NCBI GenBank assembly: GCA_029547185.1
Contig: JAKPPU010000067.1
Coordinates: forward strand, 1 to 64,000
DNA: 64,000 nucleotides
From: Deltaproteobacteria bacterium
Lineage (GTDB): Bacteria > Desulfobacterota > Desulfomonilia > UBA1062
Direction of reading: 5' to 3'
Positions 4,256-40,890 of this stretch are shown here, one piece after another (the first letter of the stretch is position 1; every line of letters begins with the position of its first letter). Both the position numbers and the translations under genes were made by a program. Below the pieces are notes generated by a model, which was not told where the DNA came from, did no database searches, and saw only the letters and a list, made by a program, of their open reading frames with translations.

Positions 4256-7138
4256 TCAATCGAGAACCTCGCGAACCCTGACGGCCAGCTCTTTGAGTGA
4301 AAACGGCTTCTGTATGAAATTCACGCCATTGTCCAGGACACCCCGGTGGGCGATGACATCGGATGTGTAGCCCGACATGAAGAGGTGCTTTATCGTCGGC
4401 CGGACAGCCTGAAGCCGGGCAGCCAGGTCCCGTCCGTTCATCTCCGGCATGACCACGTCGGTGATGAACAGGTCGATGCCATTCAAGTCTTCCCGGGCGA
4501 TTTCGATCGCCTCGCCCGGCGTGCCTGCGGACAGGACGGTATAGCCCAGATGCTGCAGCATCTTCTTTCCCATCTCCAGTATTGCCGGCTCATCCTCTAC
4601 GATGAGAATGGTCTCACCCCGGCTGCGCGGGATATCCACGGCCGCTGCGGTCTTTATTTCTCCGGCTTCTGACCCATGGCGCGGGATGAAGATCTTGAAG
4701 GTCGTTCCATGCCCCGGCTCGCTGTATACATGTATGAACCCCTCGTTCTGCTTTACGATGCCGTACACGGTGGCCAGCCCCAGGCCCGTTCCCTGCCCCA
4801 GCTCCTTGGTGGTGAAGAATGGTTCGAAAATGCGATCGAGGTTTTCCTTGTCCATGCCGCACCCGTCGTCGCTGACGGCAAGCACCACGTACTCACCCGG
4901 AAGGACCTCGGAGTTGATCTCCCGATAGTTATCGCCGAATGAGGCCGTGTGTGTTTCGATGGATATCTTGCCGACGTCGGCGATGGCGTCTCTGGCGTTG
5001 ACGCAGAGATTGGCGAGAATCTGATCGAGCTGCGAGGGGTCCATCTTCACGGTACACGGGCCCGCCCCGGGAAGCCAGGCCAGCGTGATGTTCTCCCCGA
5101 TGAGCCTGCGAAGCATTTTCAGCGTGGCTGCAACCGACTCGTTGAGATCGAACACGACAGGCGTTACGGTCTGCTTGCGGGCAAAGGCCAGGAGCTGACG
5201 GGTTAGGCGGGCGGACCGCTCTGCCGCATCGAGGATCCTGCCGAGATTCTCGCGCAATGGATCTGCTTCGTCCATGCTGTCCATAGTGAGCTCGGCATAT
5301 CCGATAATGGCGCCCAGCATGTTGTTGAAATCGTGGGCAACCCCGCCGGCGAGCACGCCGACCGCCTCCAGCTTCCGGGACTGGAGGAGCTGTCCCTGCA
5401 GCTTCTCCCGCTCCTCTTCCTCCAGCTTGCGGTCGGTGATGTCGAAAATACTTACGATGATGCTGTCTCCTATCAGATTGGCACCGATGATCATGGTGCG
5501 CACCGTACCGTCCTTGCAGGTGACCCGGAATTCGCCCGGCTCCACCTCTGAACCTGTTGTCAGCACCTCATCGATGACTGTGCGCCAACGCGATCTCAGC
5601 TGGTCCCGATATTCAGGATCGGGATATGCGAGTCTCCACCAGTGATCGATGGTCGGTATGTCGTTGCGCGAGTATCCGAGCGCCTGCGAAAAGCGGTCGT
5701 TTACCTCGATGACCCTTCCATCCAGAGAGACATACGCAAGCGGCAAGGGCGCATTCTTGAAGAGCGAACGGAACCGCTCCTCGCTTTCCTTCAAGGCCTT
5801 CTCCGCGCGCTTTCTCTCGGTGACGTCCGCGGTCATCGTGAGAACCTGCCTCTTTTCCTGAATCTCCAGCAGGACGGATGAAAAGATGATGTGGCGCTCG
5901 GAGCCGTCCTTGGCCCGGATCGGGGTTTCGAAGTTCCGTACCGAACCTGTCTTCATCAGCATGGCAATAATATGCTCGGCCTCGATCTCGGAGAATACCT
6001 CGAAATCCTTAACCGTCAGGCGGGAAAGCTCTTCCTTCCCTATCCCTCGGGCATCCAGAAAGGCCCTGTTTGCATCCAGAAGCCGTCCGTCATCAAGGCC
6101 GTTGATGAAAATGGAGTAAGGCGCATACTCGAAGATCGCCCGGAATCTGGCCTCGCTCTGGGCCAGCACTTCCTGGGTTTCTTTCATGCTCTGGATGTTC
6201 AGGATCAGTCCTATGTATCGTGTCGGAACTCCGTTTCTATCCCTGGCAACGGCCTGGCCCTTGGACAGAACCCAGCACCAGGTTCCGTCGGCCCTCCGGA
6301 TACGGAACTCGGTCTCGAACAGGCCCTGACCGCCGGCATTAATGTAGCCGCTGAACCTTTTTTCTGCAACGGGCAGGTCCTCGGGATGAATAAAGCCCCT
6401 CCATTCATCCAGAGAGACCTCCCGGGCTATCGGCCTATAGCCGAGCATGGTGTACAATTGCTCTCCCAGATAACCGGAACCCCTGGCCGGGTAAAAATCC
6501 CAGATGCCGGCATAAGTTGCATCCATGGCGAGCCGCAGCAGCTCGTTCTGGGCCAGGAGCTCCTGCTGAGCCGTTTTCAGGCTGGCGACCTTCTCTTTGA
6601 GCCTGTATCTGAGGAAATAGCTCGTGCAGAGCAGTCCTATCGTGATGAGCACGGCGAGCGCGTTGATAATCCGGAATCGGCGGCGGGCATCCTGATCGAG
6701 CCAGCCTCTCATGCCCACGGAGGCCAGTTTCGTGCGTACTGCCTCGAGCCTGCTTTCGGCAGCGGTCTTGGGGAGAGAGGCACCGAGCCGCGCTTCGATC
6801 ATCGCCGGCAGATCCGCCCCGATCCGTGCAGGAGAGCCTTCGCTGACGGAAGGAAGCGTCAGTCTTCCATGGTTCAGCCGGACCTGCTCATTAAAAATGA
6901 GGCGCACAGGGGATATCCCCCCGGCATGCACGGGTGCAGCCGGGACACAGAACAGGCCGACAACAAAAGGGAGAACGGCCACAAGGCCGATGGCTCCGCG
7001 CAGAAGGCATTTCTTTGTCAATGAAGGAATGGAACCGACAATCGGTCTCGAGGTCGATACATCCGCGCCCAAAATGCTTACCCCTCTAAGATGCCTCAAA
7101 TTGCCTGTCACGGTTGAGCGGACCCCATCAGGGATCAC
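4256..7138 (-). CDS. Hybrid PAS histidine kinase with C-terminal receiver
   Basis: This protein is about 960 residues long. Visible order: membrane segment near 46-66, a short (about 90-residue) periplasmic part, a second membrane segment near 157-177, three PAS domains (about 200-570; YAGIWDFYP, FRAIFEYAPYSIF and FRSLFKNAPLPLA regions), a HisKA domain with phosphoacceptor motif VAHDFNN, and an HATPase domain with DDGCGM, FEPFFTTK and GTGLGLA. A receiver domain at about 840-958 ends the protein, with acidic pocket EDE and phosphoacceptor DVVMPEMNG. It is a membrane-bound hybrid kinase; the signal is unknown. The first residues are poorly hydrophobic, so the true start may be an internal TTG near 7022. 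It converges with the lipase-chaperone-like gene and has no obvious separate response regulator beside it. Confidence 0.9.
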   Translation of the reverse strand: MIPDGVRSTVTGNLRHLRGVSILGADVSTSRPIVGSIPSLTKKCLLRGAIGLVAVLPFVVGLFCVPAAPVHAGGISPVRLIFNEQVRLNHGRLTLPSVSEGSPARIGADLPAMIEARLGASLPKTAAESRLEAVRTKLASVGMRGWLDQDARRRFRIINALAVLITIGLLCTSYFLRYRLKEKVASLKTAQQELLAQNELLRLAMDATYAGIWDFYPARGSGYLGEQLYTMLGYRPIAREVSLDEWRGFIHPEDLPVAEKRFSGYINAGGQGLFETEFRIRRADGTWCWVLSKGQAVARDRNGVPTRYIGLILNIQSMKETQEVLAQSEARFRAIFEYAPYSIFINGLDDGRLLDANRAFLDARGIGKEELSRLTVKDFEVFSEIEAEHIIAMLMKTGSVRNFETPIRAKDGSERHIIFSSVLLEIQEKRQVLTMTADVTERKRAEKALKESEERFRSLFKNAPLPLAYVSLDGRVIEVNDRFSQALGYSRNDIPTIDHWWRLAYPDPEYRDQLRSRWRTVIDEVLTTGSEVEPGEFRVTCKDGTVRTMIIGANLIGDSIIVSIFDITDRKLEEEEREKLQGQLLQSRKLEAVGVLAGGVAHDFNNMLGAIIGYAELTMDSMDEADPLRENLGRILDAAERSARLTRQLLAFARKQTVTPVVFDLNESVAATLKMLRRLIGENITLAWLPGAGPCTVKMDPSQLDQILANLCVNARDAIADVGKISIETHTASFGDNYREINSEVLPGEYVVLAVSDDGCGMDKENLDRIFEPFFTTKELGQGTGLGLATVYGIVKQNEGFIHVYSEPGHGTTFKIFIPRHGSEAGEIKTAAAVDIPRSRGETILIVEDEPAILEMGKKMLQHLGYTVLSAGTPGEAIEIAREDLNGIDLFITDVVMPEMNGRDLAARLQAVRPTIKHLFMSGYTSDVIAHRGVLDNGVNFIQKPFSLKELAVRVREVLD

Positions 7139-18366: not shown

Positions 18367-18984
18367 TCACGTCGTGTCGGTTTTCAATAACGCCGGGCTC
18401 CAGATCTCCCAGACCTTGCCGATGAGGGCCATCCCGGGCTTGAGGGTCGGCATGCCCGGGCGCCAGCCCGACGGGATGACCTCCCTTTCCTTGCTTGACT
18501 TCACGTACTGGAATGCCTGGAGCAGACGGATTATCTCATCGATGTTCCTGCCTACGGGCGCCGTGAGCACCTCGTATCCCTGGATCACCCCTTCGGGGTC
18601 GATGATGAAGGTTCCCCGTAGGTCCACGCCGTTACTCTCCTCGAACACCCCGTATTCAATCCCTATCTTTCCGGCAATGTCGGTGAGCATGGGAAAAGGA
18701 ATGCCGCCCGGTATGATCTTTGAGAGCTCGGATTCATTCCATACCTTATGGACATAGATGGTATCGACGCTCAGGACCAGAACCTCGGTGTCGAGCTTCT
18801 GGAATTCGGTGTACTTGTCGGCAACTGCCGACACCTCTGTCGTTCAGACAAAGGTGTAGTCTCCTCCGTAGAAAAACACCACAACCCATTTGCCTCGGTA
18901 CTTCGAGAGATCAATGTGGGTAAATCTCTCCTTATAGTATGCCGGGGCAACAAAATTCGGTGCAGGCTCCCCTGCCTTGATCAT
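18367..18984 (-). CDS. prxU: Selenocysteine-containing peroxiredoxin (PrxU-like), in-frame UGA at codon 47
   Basis: Read from ATG 18984 (GGGCCAGGAGGG just upstream), the frame gives a normal peroxiredoxin start (MIKAGEPAPNFVAPAYYKE) up to FFYGGDYTFV. It then meets UGA (18846-18844) exactly where the peroxidatic Cys of the FTFVCPTE motif belongs, and continues TTEVSAVADKY through GIPFPMLTDIAGKIG and RGTFIIDPEGVI to a normal end (205 residues). No cysteine occurs anywhere in the protein. A hairpin suited to a bacterial SECIS follows the UGA. The enzyme should reduce peroxides with Sec47, depending on an external reductant. Seen as a non-Sec gene it would look truncated at GTG 18834. PrxU selenoproteins are known in anaerobes. 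Confidence 0.9.
18816..18833 (-). promoter_or_regulatory. Candidate SECIS hairpin of the peroxiredoxin
   Basis: In the mRNA, TGTCGGC-AGTT-GCCGACA forms a perfect 7-bp stem with an AGUU loop, beginning 11 nt after the UGA with the loop starting 18 nt after it. Bacterial SECIS elements place a G/U-containing apical loop about 16-37 nt after the UGA. Confidence 0.75.
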
Positions 18985-39132: not shown

Positions 39133-39162
39133 TTAAAAACAAGAGTTATCTGCCATTTTATA

Positions 39163-39339
39163 AAGATCGGCACGAACGATGAGATCGCTTCACAGGGAAT
39201 CATCTACGGAAAGGCAAAGACCATAGGCGCCTGGGATTTGGGCATATCGGAGAGGAACATGATGGAGAAGCACCTTCGAAGGCTCATGCAGCAGGGCCGC
39301 GCAGCGTTCGACGGGAAGGCGTATCGTCTCGTCTGCTGA
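39163..39339 (+). pseudogene. Short unassigned coding remnant
   Basis: The + frame KIGTNDEIASQGIIYGKAKT...DLGISERNMMEKHLRRLMQQGRAAFDGKAYRLV ends in TGA 39337. It reads like part of a protein (a winged-helix-like end is possible) but has no start codon and no full domain. It may be a decayed regulator near the ald operators. Low certainty. Confidence 0.3.
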
Positions 39340-39431
39340 GTGGTGCGCCTTCATGCCTGCCTGAACAGCTGTACGTTTTTGCCGTTGCAGGGAAACGGCT
39401 TCATGGATATCATTTAAGGATAGGAGGTGCG

Positions 39432-39698
39432 ATGATTTCATTTACGAAGAGGGCTCTCGATGAGCTTGAGGCGGCGGGAAGACAAAGCGGGTCCGTTTGT
39501 CTGAGGATCCGGCCTGCCGGTGCCGTCTGAAACGGGATTACCCTGAAAGCGGCTCTGGAAGAGCCGCACGATGGCGATATCCTTTCCGAGCAAGGCGGCA
39601 TCCGCATCGCCCTCCAGAGCGGAATCGGCGTACAGGGCTCTCCGATCGAGGTCGATTATTCCGAGTCAGGCTTCACCGCCTCCCTCAAGCAGCACTGA
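39432..39698 (+). CDS. HesB-like selenoprotein, in-frame UGA at codon 33
   Basis: From ATG 39432 (AGGAGGTGCG just upstream) the frame reads MISFTKRALDELEAAG...RIRPAGAV, meets UGA at 39528-39530, then continues NGITLKAALEEPHDGDILSEQ to VDYSESGF and TGA 39696 (88 residues). This is the HesB-like (seleno)protein family (TIGR01911): AGxGUxGxxxxLALDE with a downstream GIRIALQSGIGVQGSPIEVDY half. Sec33 takes the place of the conserved Cys of HesB/IscA. The only Cys is C23. A perfect hairpin follows the UGA. The function of the family is not known; a role in Fe-S or redox chemistry is presumed. Conventional gene calling sees only short fragments here. Confidence 0.88.
39549..39567 (+). promoter_or_regulatory. 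Candidate SECIS hairpin of the HesB-like gene
   Basis: GCGGCTC (39549-39555), loop TGGAA, GAGCCGC (39561-39567): a perfect 7-bp stem with a GG-containing loop. The loop begins 26 nt after the UGA, inside the 16-37 nt window of bacterial SECIS elements. Confidence 0.75.
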
Positions 39699-39714
39699 AG
39701 CCGCCGGGGAGAGA

Positions 39715-40890
39715 CTACCTGCCGTCCCAGCCGGCAAGGCGGGCCCAGAGCCACCACGCAGCATATGCCTTCTGGTTCGCATTGAGCGGCTGGGAGTATG
39801 CAGCCGGGCACTCATACCAGTCCATGCCCTTAGTGTGCGACTTCTGCCACTGGACTGCCCAGTTCGCATCCCTCACCCTGTCTCCATTCGAGTCGTAGTC
39901 ACAGCTGCCGTTCGCGATCCTGTCACCGAAGAAGGTCCCATCCGGGTCATAGGCTTCGATGTCGGCGAAGTCATAGAGGATCTTGCCGTTATTCCTGCAG
40001 TACGCCCGTATCTGCTCGTTCCCGGCATGCAGGTTCCCTGAAGGCCCTGTGCCGTCGAGATGGCCCGTCATATAGACGAACTTCACCTCGGGATATTCGG
40101 TCTCGAGCGTATTCATGAGATTGAGGTAGCCATTGATATCGGCCTCGGTTGCCGTCGATACCTGGCTCTCCCATGACCAGACGACCACATTGATCTCTCT
40201 GTGCGCATTGAGATACGACCGCGTCTCGTCCGCCCAGGCCGCAAAATCCGGATATCCCAGATCGCGCTGATCGCTTGTGAAGGGATTGTCCCGCAGGTCG
40301 AGCCCGCTTCCCGTACCCGGTGCGCTGTACGTATAGGGAGGACCCTTCCACGAAGAGAGGCCCGCCATGCCCGCTGTGAGCTGGCTGCCGTAGGACGTGT
40401 GTCCATAGGCGATATGCAGATCGGTCTTTGCCCTGGCTATCCAATACTCCGGTATGGATCCGAGATCCGTACAGGCGTGATCGATAACGATGCCGCCGGC
40501 CGAACGGGACGGCCCGGGAAGGGTCACCTTGAGGAGGATGGAATCAGAGGCATTTCCCGAGGTCGCCGTGATGATCGCCTCGCCCTCGGCAACCGCCCTT
40601 GCGAGCCCTGTATTGCTGATGATCGCCACATTCGTATTCGAAGACGACCACAGGACATCCGCAGCCGGATAGGCTGCCGATCGGCGGGGATATACGGCCG
40701 TTGCCGTAAGCCGCAGGGTTTCTCCTTCGTGAATGCTCCGGACCCTCGGCGAGATCGCCAGAGAAACTGAGGAGGCCTCTTCAGAGGATGCAGCACCGTT
40801 TTCAATGCCTTCATCGGTACAGCCGGACAACAAAGAGATGGATAAGAGAAGCAGGATTATCACGTGCTGGATTTTCAAGGTAAAATACAT
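39715..40890 (-). CDS. Lipoprotein with Ig-like domain and SGNH-like catalytic region
   Basis: This 391-residue protein has a lipoprotein signal (HVIILLLLSISLLSGC). Residues about 40-120 form a BIG2-type Ig-like domain (SLAISPRVRSIHEGETLRLTATAVYP...SNTNVAIIS). The rest reads GGIVIDHACTDLGSIPEYWIARAKTDLHIAYGHTSYGSQL and later INVVVWSWESQ, VKFVYMTGHLDGTG, a secreted family without assigned function that resembles SGNH-like folds. GAGGAGATCG before ATG 40890 sets the start; a longer frame to 41013 has no ribosome-binding site. It converges with the HesB-like gene. Confidence 0.65.
   Translation of the reverse strand: MYFTLKIQHVIILLLLSISLLSGCTDEGIENGAASSEEASSVSLAISPRVRSIHEGETLRLTATAVYPRRSAAYPAADVLWSSSNTNVAIISNTGLARAVAEGEAIITATSGNASDSILLKVTLPGPSRSAGGIVIDHACTDLGSIPEYWIARAKTDLHIAYGHTSYGSQLTAGMAGLSSWKGPPYTYSAPGTGSGLDLRDNPFTSDQRDLGYPDFAAWADETRSYLNAHREINVVVWSWESQVSTATEADINGYLNLMNTLETEYPEVKFVYMTGHLDGTGPSGNLHAGNEQIRAYCRNNGKILYDFADIEAYDPDGTFFGDRIANGSCDYDSNGDRVRDANWAVQWQKSHTKGMDWYECPAAYSQPLNANQKAYAAWWLWARLAGWDGR

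Follow-up and report, generated by a model that had tools for sequence, protein, structure and literature searches.

A divergent HesB/IscA-type gene with an in-frame UGA, most likely encoding a selenoprotein, in a metagenome-assembled deltaproteobacterial genome

Background

The A-type Fe-S carriers IscA, SufA and ErpA (TIGR00049, PF01521) have three conserved cysteine ligands, two of which are C-terminal. The HesB-like selenoproteins (TIGR01911 HesB_rel_seleno, NF038090) belong to the HesB/IscA family, with selenocysteine (Sec) taking the place of the first conserved cysteine, within a UxG motif. Most of the classic copies have UxGP and a cysteine-rich end such as CGGCTSC, and a second group (for example the copy on contig C211 of the genome described here) has F, Y, S, T or P after UxG, with one to three late cysteines. 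The published motif of HesB-like selenoproteins is UxGP (PMC13188914, Table 1), and the kind has been on record from 2006 or earlier, 11 of these proteins being in Table 1 of PMC1794560. In the accessible portions of the open-licence literature no HesB-like selenoprotein without C-terminal cysteines was found to be described.

The A-type fold is also that of DsrR of Allochromatium vinosum (2k4z), which is a weak structural match to the model of the protein described below (Foldseek rank 7). Going by the title of the paper on it, DsrR is reportedly an A-type protein without iron and Fe-S binding, a regulatory role is said to have been found for it, it reportedly takes part in sulfur oxidation, and it is not known to be a selenoprotein. 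No dsr gene was named among the scanned neighbours of the gene described here or of its homologue.

The gene and its frame

The gene lies in the window, by which is meant the whole stretch of 64,000 nucleotides that was analysed. Judged from its sequence it is very probably (a probability of about 0.9) a working selenoprotein gene, in which UGA 39528-39530 is decoded as Sec. Its features are as follows.

39422..39428, + strand: AGGAGGT Shine-Dalgarno-like site, three bases before ATG 39432 (sequence)
39432..39698, + strand: predicted selenoprotein frame of the HesB/IscA family, 88 codons (39432-39695) plus terminal TGA 39696-39698 (sequence, family match, homologue)
39498..39500, + strand: codon 23 (Cys), the sole cysteine of the protein, common to the homologue in genome G021 (translation, alignment)
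39528..39530, + strand: UGA codon 33, predicted to be read as Sec, aligned with the first conserved cysteine of HesB/IscA proteins (alignment; the G021 homologue also has TGA)
39549..39567, + strand: SECIS-type stem-loop GCGGCUC-UGGAA-GAGCCGC (folding, conservation, covariation)

An earlier note on this DNA had described a frame of 88 codons, the 33rd of them TGA, with a strong AGGAGGT site, and it is apparent that this description was accurate, with RPAGAV-U-NG, LKAALEEPHDGD and VDYSESGF all present in frame 39432-39695. The perfect GCGGCTC/GAGCCGC stem with the loop TGGAA is also there, 18 nt lying between the UGA and the stem, which starts at the 19th. The statement that no unbroken frame covers the gene holds for the gene's own frame, but not for other frames, in which unbroken ORFs overlap it (39497-39898 +, 39571-40041 + and 39410-39607 -). 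Methionine apart, the only chalcogen side chains among the 88 residues are those of Cys23 and Sec33.

The gene is flanked by genes for an alanine dehydrogenase (TIGR00518) and a Big_2-domain protein, both on the opposite strand. Neither a promoter nor a terminator consensus was found at the gene (0 of each), which was counted against the selenoprotein reading, and Rfam gave 0 matches at gathering score in the whole window. Directly upstream, at 39133-39339 (+), is an open piece of 68 residues ending DGKAYRLVC, perhaps the remnant of a longer gene, for which NCBIfam and Pfam gave no match.

The homologue and its wider distribution

The closest relative is G021:C296:6114-6368, which is 52-54% identical to the window protein and has TGA at the same codon. 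It has the same stem, the same Cys23 and the same missing tail, but differs in having a GTG start, two extra cysteines and other neighbours. Over 85 aligned codons the two genes differ 33, 21 and 53 times at positions 1, 2 and 3, a pattern that favours a constrained protein in the Sec frame, the frame's own third position being the most variable. As only two sequences of the type were found, its own conservation rests on this one comparison. In a tree of 31 rows, in which the order of the main groups is unresolved, the pair fall in a clade of their own (99/99), set off by a branch of 2.72 changes per column.

Searching with the single protein gave matches at E 0.001 in 16 of 60 genomes, its own (G000) included, and a two-row profile matched 19 of the 42 genomes of the class, only G000 and G021 scoring above 40 bits (G021 166 bits, the next best 38.6). 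With the same profile the seven other genomes of the genus each gave a HesB-type match, none of which was of the window type. Across 395 genomes of the phylum only G000 matched at E 1e-9, G021 evidently being outside the draw. A scan of 84,980 species genomes with two short peptide patterns, which misses relatives varying in those peptides, confirmed one locus out of 90 candidate stretches, JAJFUP010000034.1 of the Deltaproteobacteria MAG bin.476, and this is taken to be the same copy as that in G021. There was no match in plasmid records at E 1e-5. Viral contigs gave one confirmed locus, of 32% identity, which was set aside as not of the window type, being a Cys protein with a C-terminal CGCG; it adjoins a gene that by eye we take to be IscU-like.

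The earlier note had named the lack of any homologue with Cys or Sec at the aligned position as grounds for giving up its claim, and such homologues do exist. Within G022:C172:7902-8504 and G019:C75:30558-31814 a HesB-type TGA copy and a Cys copy lie less than 1 kb apart, each a natural Sec/Cys pair, and G022:C172 has a third HesB-type copy, with TGA, at 2392-2640.

The neighbourhood was considered as a clue to function and rejected, since the neighbours in G021 look unrelated to those in the window; no shared neighbours were seen when the two lists were compared by eye, which was counted against the selenoprotein reading. The frame that ends directly before the G021 homologue, at about 5712-6113 (+) of G021:C296, is multihaem cytochrome-like with TAA at 6012 and 6093, and is possibly short or decayed.

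Family and fold

With Cys in place of Sec the 88-residue protein matches NF038090 (IscA_HesB_Se) at E 2.8e-8 over residues 1-82, with 34 bits against a cut-off of 85, and TIGR00049 at E 3.1e-4, with 20.9 bits against 58.8. Pfam Fe-S_biosyn (PF01521) gives 17.9 bits, where the cut-off is 26.3. The match to the HesB family spans both sides of the UGA; the protein nevertheless scores under every curated cut-off, which was counted against the selenoprotein reading.

The earlier note had filed the gene under TIGR01911, and this filing was not supported. TIGR01911 reported two other places in the genome at E <= 0.001 and not the window frame, which was unlisted up to E 10; one of the two members of the type was matched at E 0.012, by the search tables the G021 homologue. 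TIGR01911 was thus rejected as the family, the best model being NF038090 with only 34 of the 85 bits. What stands of the claim of a HesB-like Sec gene is the Sec-type UGA, the HesB-like frame, the SECIS-type stem and the Sec machinery, and what lacks support, by the cut-offs, the UNGI and the missing C-terminal cysteines, is the TIGR01911 membership.

In an alignment of ten rows Sec33 lines up with the first conserved cysteine and eight columns are invariant (M1, T5, R25, C/U33, G35, D49, D75 and G80), whilst the C-terminal cysteines of HesB/IscA proteins are missing from the window protein. The protein keeps UxG but has UNGI (UTGI in G021) where the published motif of HesB-like selenoproteins is UxGP, and is further unlike them in having no C-terminal cysteine, 88 residues and sub-cut-off scores. 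Together the two members of the type are marked by UNGI or UTGI, LEEPH for LDEP, the lack of a tail and the common Cys23. The carriers IscA, SufA and ErpA are like the window protein in a weak sequence match and in providing its best structural matches, and unlike it in that the protein has Sec for the first cysteine and is without the C-terminal cysteine ligands.

A profile of the ten-row alignment found seven distinct PDB sequences at E 0.01, IscA, SufA and DsrR among them. The AlphaFold model, made from a two-row input, is weak (pLDDT 60.3, pTM 0.46), and Foldseek of this weak model against the PDB gave no match at E 0.001, with IscA, SufA, HI1723, AQ_1857 and DsrR at ranks 1, 2, 3 and 5 to 9 (E 0.026 to 0.87). 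By alignment and family scores the predicted protein is a divergent HesB/IscA relative, neither a plain TIGR01911 nor a plain NF038090 member, and it is most likely a divergent selenoprotein of A-type fold. A bond between Cys23 and Sec33 of one chain was considered and is unlikely, because the two residues lie at opposite ends of a single predicted strand (22-32), in a part where the model is weak.

The SECIS-type stem

The stem at 39549-39567 has 7 bp, and its loop begins 25 nt after the UGA. The earlier note had suggested folding the region next to the UGA, and on doing so the stem does form, with -13.2 kcal/mol for the stem and -18.4 for the UGA plus 47 nt; in the minimum-energy fold an extra U-A pair lengthens the stem to 8 bp and leaves GGA as the loop. 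The HesB-like selenoproteins likewise have a stem-loop with GGA in the loop, and at this distance. The bSECIS constraints given in the accessible text of PMC13188914 are a loop of 3-9 nt, a stem of 4-16 bp, G in the first two loop positions, a spacing of 16-37 nt and an MFE <= -7.5, and the window stem agrees with all of those quoted there.

To gauge chance, the 18 codons after the UGA were recoded synonymously 5000 times with the codon usage of 7 window ORFs, and 85 recodings gave a fitting stem of at least 7 bp, whilst 68 folded at least as well. By itself the stem is therefore about a 1.5% chance event (85/5000), and the weight of the evidence comes from its conservation. This was surveyed in the 27 TGA copies from the searches of this genome, of the 60 genomes and of the class, 26 of which are distinct over 48 nt, together with 3 copies of the window's family that have Cys, the count leaving out L013, a distant Cys IscA whose codons do not show the stem. 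The strict pattern occurs in 26 of the 27 TGA copies, in a gapless alignment and at the same distance, and in none of the 3 Cys copies. The 27th TGA copy, L062 (G007:C204:7023-7274), has a compensated form, TTTCTC-TGGAT-GAGAAA, in place of the TGGCTC/GAGCCA, or something close to it, of most others, so both arms have changed together. With small variants, the element GGCUC-N-GGA-N-GAGCC is found in 26 of the 27. A free stem search picked another stem for L011, although the pattern does occur in that copy.

Over the 26 distinct rows 91.2% of cells pair and 4 of the 7 pairs change on both sides, the outermost pair being unpaired in 15 rows. None of 500 shuffles reached the observed covariation score, and 4 of 500 had at least as many further pair types as the real alignment. 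When the partner was shifted by 1 to 3 columns the values were lower throughout, though it should be noted that the relatedness of the rows inflates such scores. Between the window and G021, stem codons for unchanged residues are identical in 5 of 6 cases against 10 of 38 elsewhere (Fisher p 0.013, from a small sample).

Selenocysteine machinery and other candidates

The window comes from contig C215, in an assembly of 4.19 Mb and 215 contigs, 96.03% complete and 5.31% contaminated, the contamination being counted against the selenoprotein reading. The earlier note would have abandoned its claim for a genome without Sec-incorporation machinery, which is not the case here, as tRNA-Sec (71.6 bits, gathering score 47, with ARAGORN in agreement), SelA (531.6 bits) and SelB (270.5 bits, its first 50 positions cut by a contig end) are present, both proteins over their cut-offs.

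NF038090 finds three places in the genome, each with one TGA inside: C117 at 99.8 bits, which is over the cut-off, C211 at 65.2 and the window gene at 27.0. Of 14 control genomes 8 give a TIGR00049 match over the cut-off, but in this genome that model finds only C117, below the cut-off. With all NF038090 places having TGA and only this one sub-cut-off match to TIGR00049, the two models gave no sign of an ordinary Cys A-type carrier in the genome, the assembly of which is incomplete.

Within the class tRNA-Sec was found in 37 of the 42 genomes, G021 among them. The sole two-row-profile match in G015, an 86% complete genome in which no tRNA-Sec was found, is a Cys copy. The link between machinery and TGA copies is imperfect in these data, because G003 and G009 hold TGA copies and no tRNA-Sec was found in them, which may be due to incomplete assembly or to stricter search filters.

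The earlier note had also called this gene the second Sec gene within the same 64 kb, which is likely right, a further candidate with TFVU having been found in the window.

18370-18984, - strand: candidate selenoprotein, AhpC/TSA peroxiredoxin, TFVU at the peroxidatic position, TGA 18846-18844 (PF00578, E 5.8e-35)

A strict hexamer scan of the window for Sec genes returned nothing, and so missed the HesB-type gene as well. A looser codon scan gave 403 TGA sites, with the peroxiredoxin at rank 13 and the HesB-type gene at rank 49; the peroxiredoxin was picked from the 403 by its motif, its family then being confirmed by Pfam.

Alternative explanations

An in-frame stop in a MAG, together with low family scores and the possible gene remnant just upstream at 39133-39339, could point to a pseudogene or an assembly error, with the TGA a plain nonsense mutation. 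This is highly improbable, as the same TGA is found in an independent MAG at 52-54% identity, the substitution pattern is protein-like, the ribosome-binding-like site is strong and the stem is conserved. That the real gene is instead one of the unbroken ORFs in another frame, with the Sec frame its shadow, has a negligible chance of being right: 39497-39898 and 39571-40041 are indeed open over 133 and 156 codons, but the family matches belong to the Sec frame, and it is the third codon position of the Sec frame that varies most against the homologue. The UGA might also mostly end translation, making the gene a selenium-dependent switch or the source of a 32-residue peptide. Decoding of Sec is usually inefficient, which lends this something, yet conservation is as high after the UGA as before it, most of the HesB domain lies in the part that follows it, and the idea is very improbable.

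If the gene is a working selenoprotein gene, it could still be a drifted but otherwise ordinary HesB-like selenoprotein (TIGR01911/NF038090) that functions as the classic copies do, with which it shares the fold family, the position of Sec, the stem and the stem distance. We regard this as rather unlikely, given that the scores are under the cut-offs, that UNGI replaces UxGP and the C-terminal cysteines are absent, that the protein falls with its homologue in a separate long-branch clade (99/99), and that the genome already has in C117 a copy over the NF038090 cut-off.

Possible function and significance

For the divergent selenoprotein of A-type fold, it is proposed that SelB and tRNA-Sec would decode UGA 39528-39530 as Sec under the direction of the stem-loop, the loop of which begins 25 nt after the codon, and that the product would be an 88-residue HesB/IscA (A-type) protein with Sec at the first metal-ligand position. 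Having no C-terminal partners, the selenolate could not make the three-cysteine IscA site, and because those ligands are missing the protein is probably not an ordinary Fe-S carrier. Each monomer would contribute one selenolate, perhaps to a site that a dimer has in common, and this selenolate might serve in a metal or cluster site spanning the dimer, in chalcogen transfer or redox chemistry, or in regulation, as is reported for DsrR. The protein may then act in a side branch of Fe-S or chalcogen handling, beside the two other TGA-containing HesB-type genes of the genome. A specialised metal-binding, chalcogen-transfer or redox role for the single selenolate within such a branch is offered tentatively, at somewhat less than even odds.

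It is equally tentative that the gene represents a new Sec subfamily of the HesB/IscA fold, which would have dropped the C-terminal cysteine ligands and be left with one selenolate, Cys23 being the sole other non-methionine chalcogen side chain, in a bacterium in which all detected HesB-type genes have Sec and no Cys A-type carrier was found, thus a possible selenium-dependent Fe-S or chalcogen branch. The form of HesB-type selenoprotein predicted here is reduced to one Sec and one Cys. The NF038090 and TIGR01911 cut-offs leave such a gene unnamed, and the element GGCUC-N-GGA-N-GAGCC could help to find more copies. With Sec retained and the other ligand cysteines lost, such a form would separate the role of Sec from ordinary Fe-S carriage, and the protein could therefore serve as a test case for that role.
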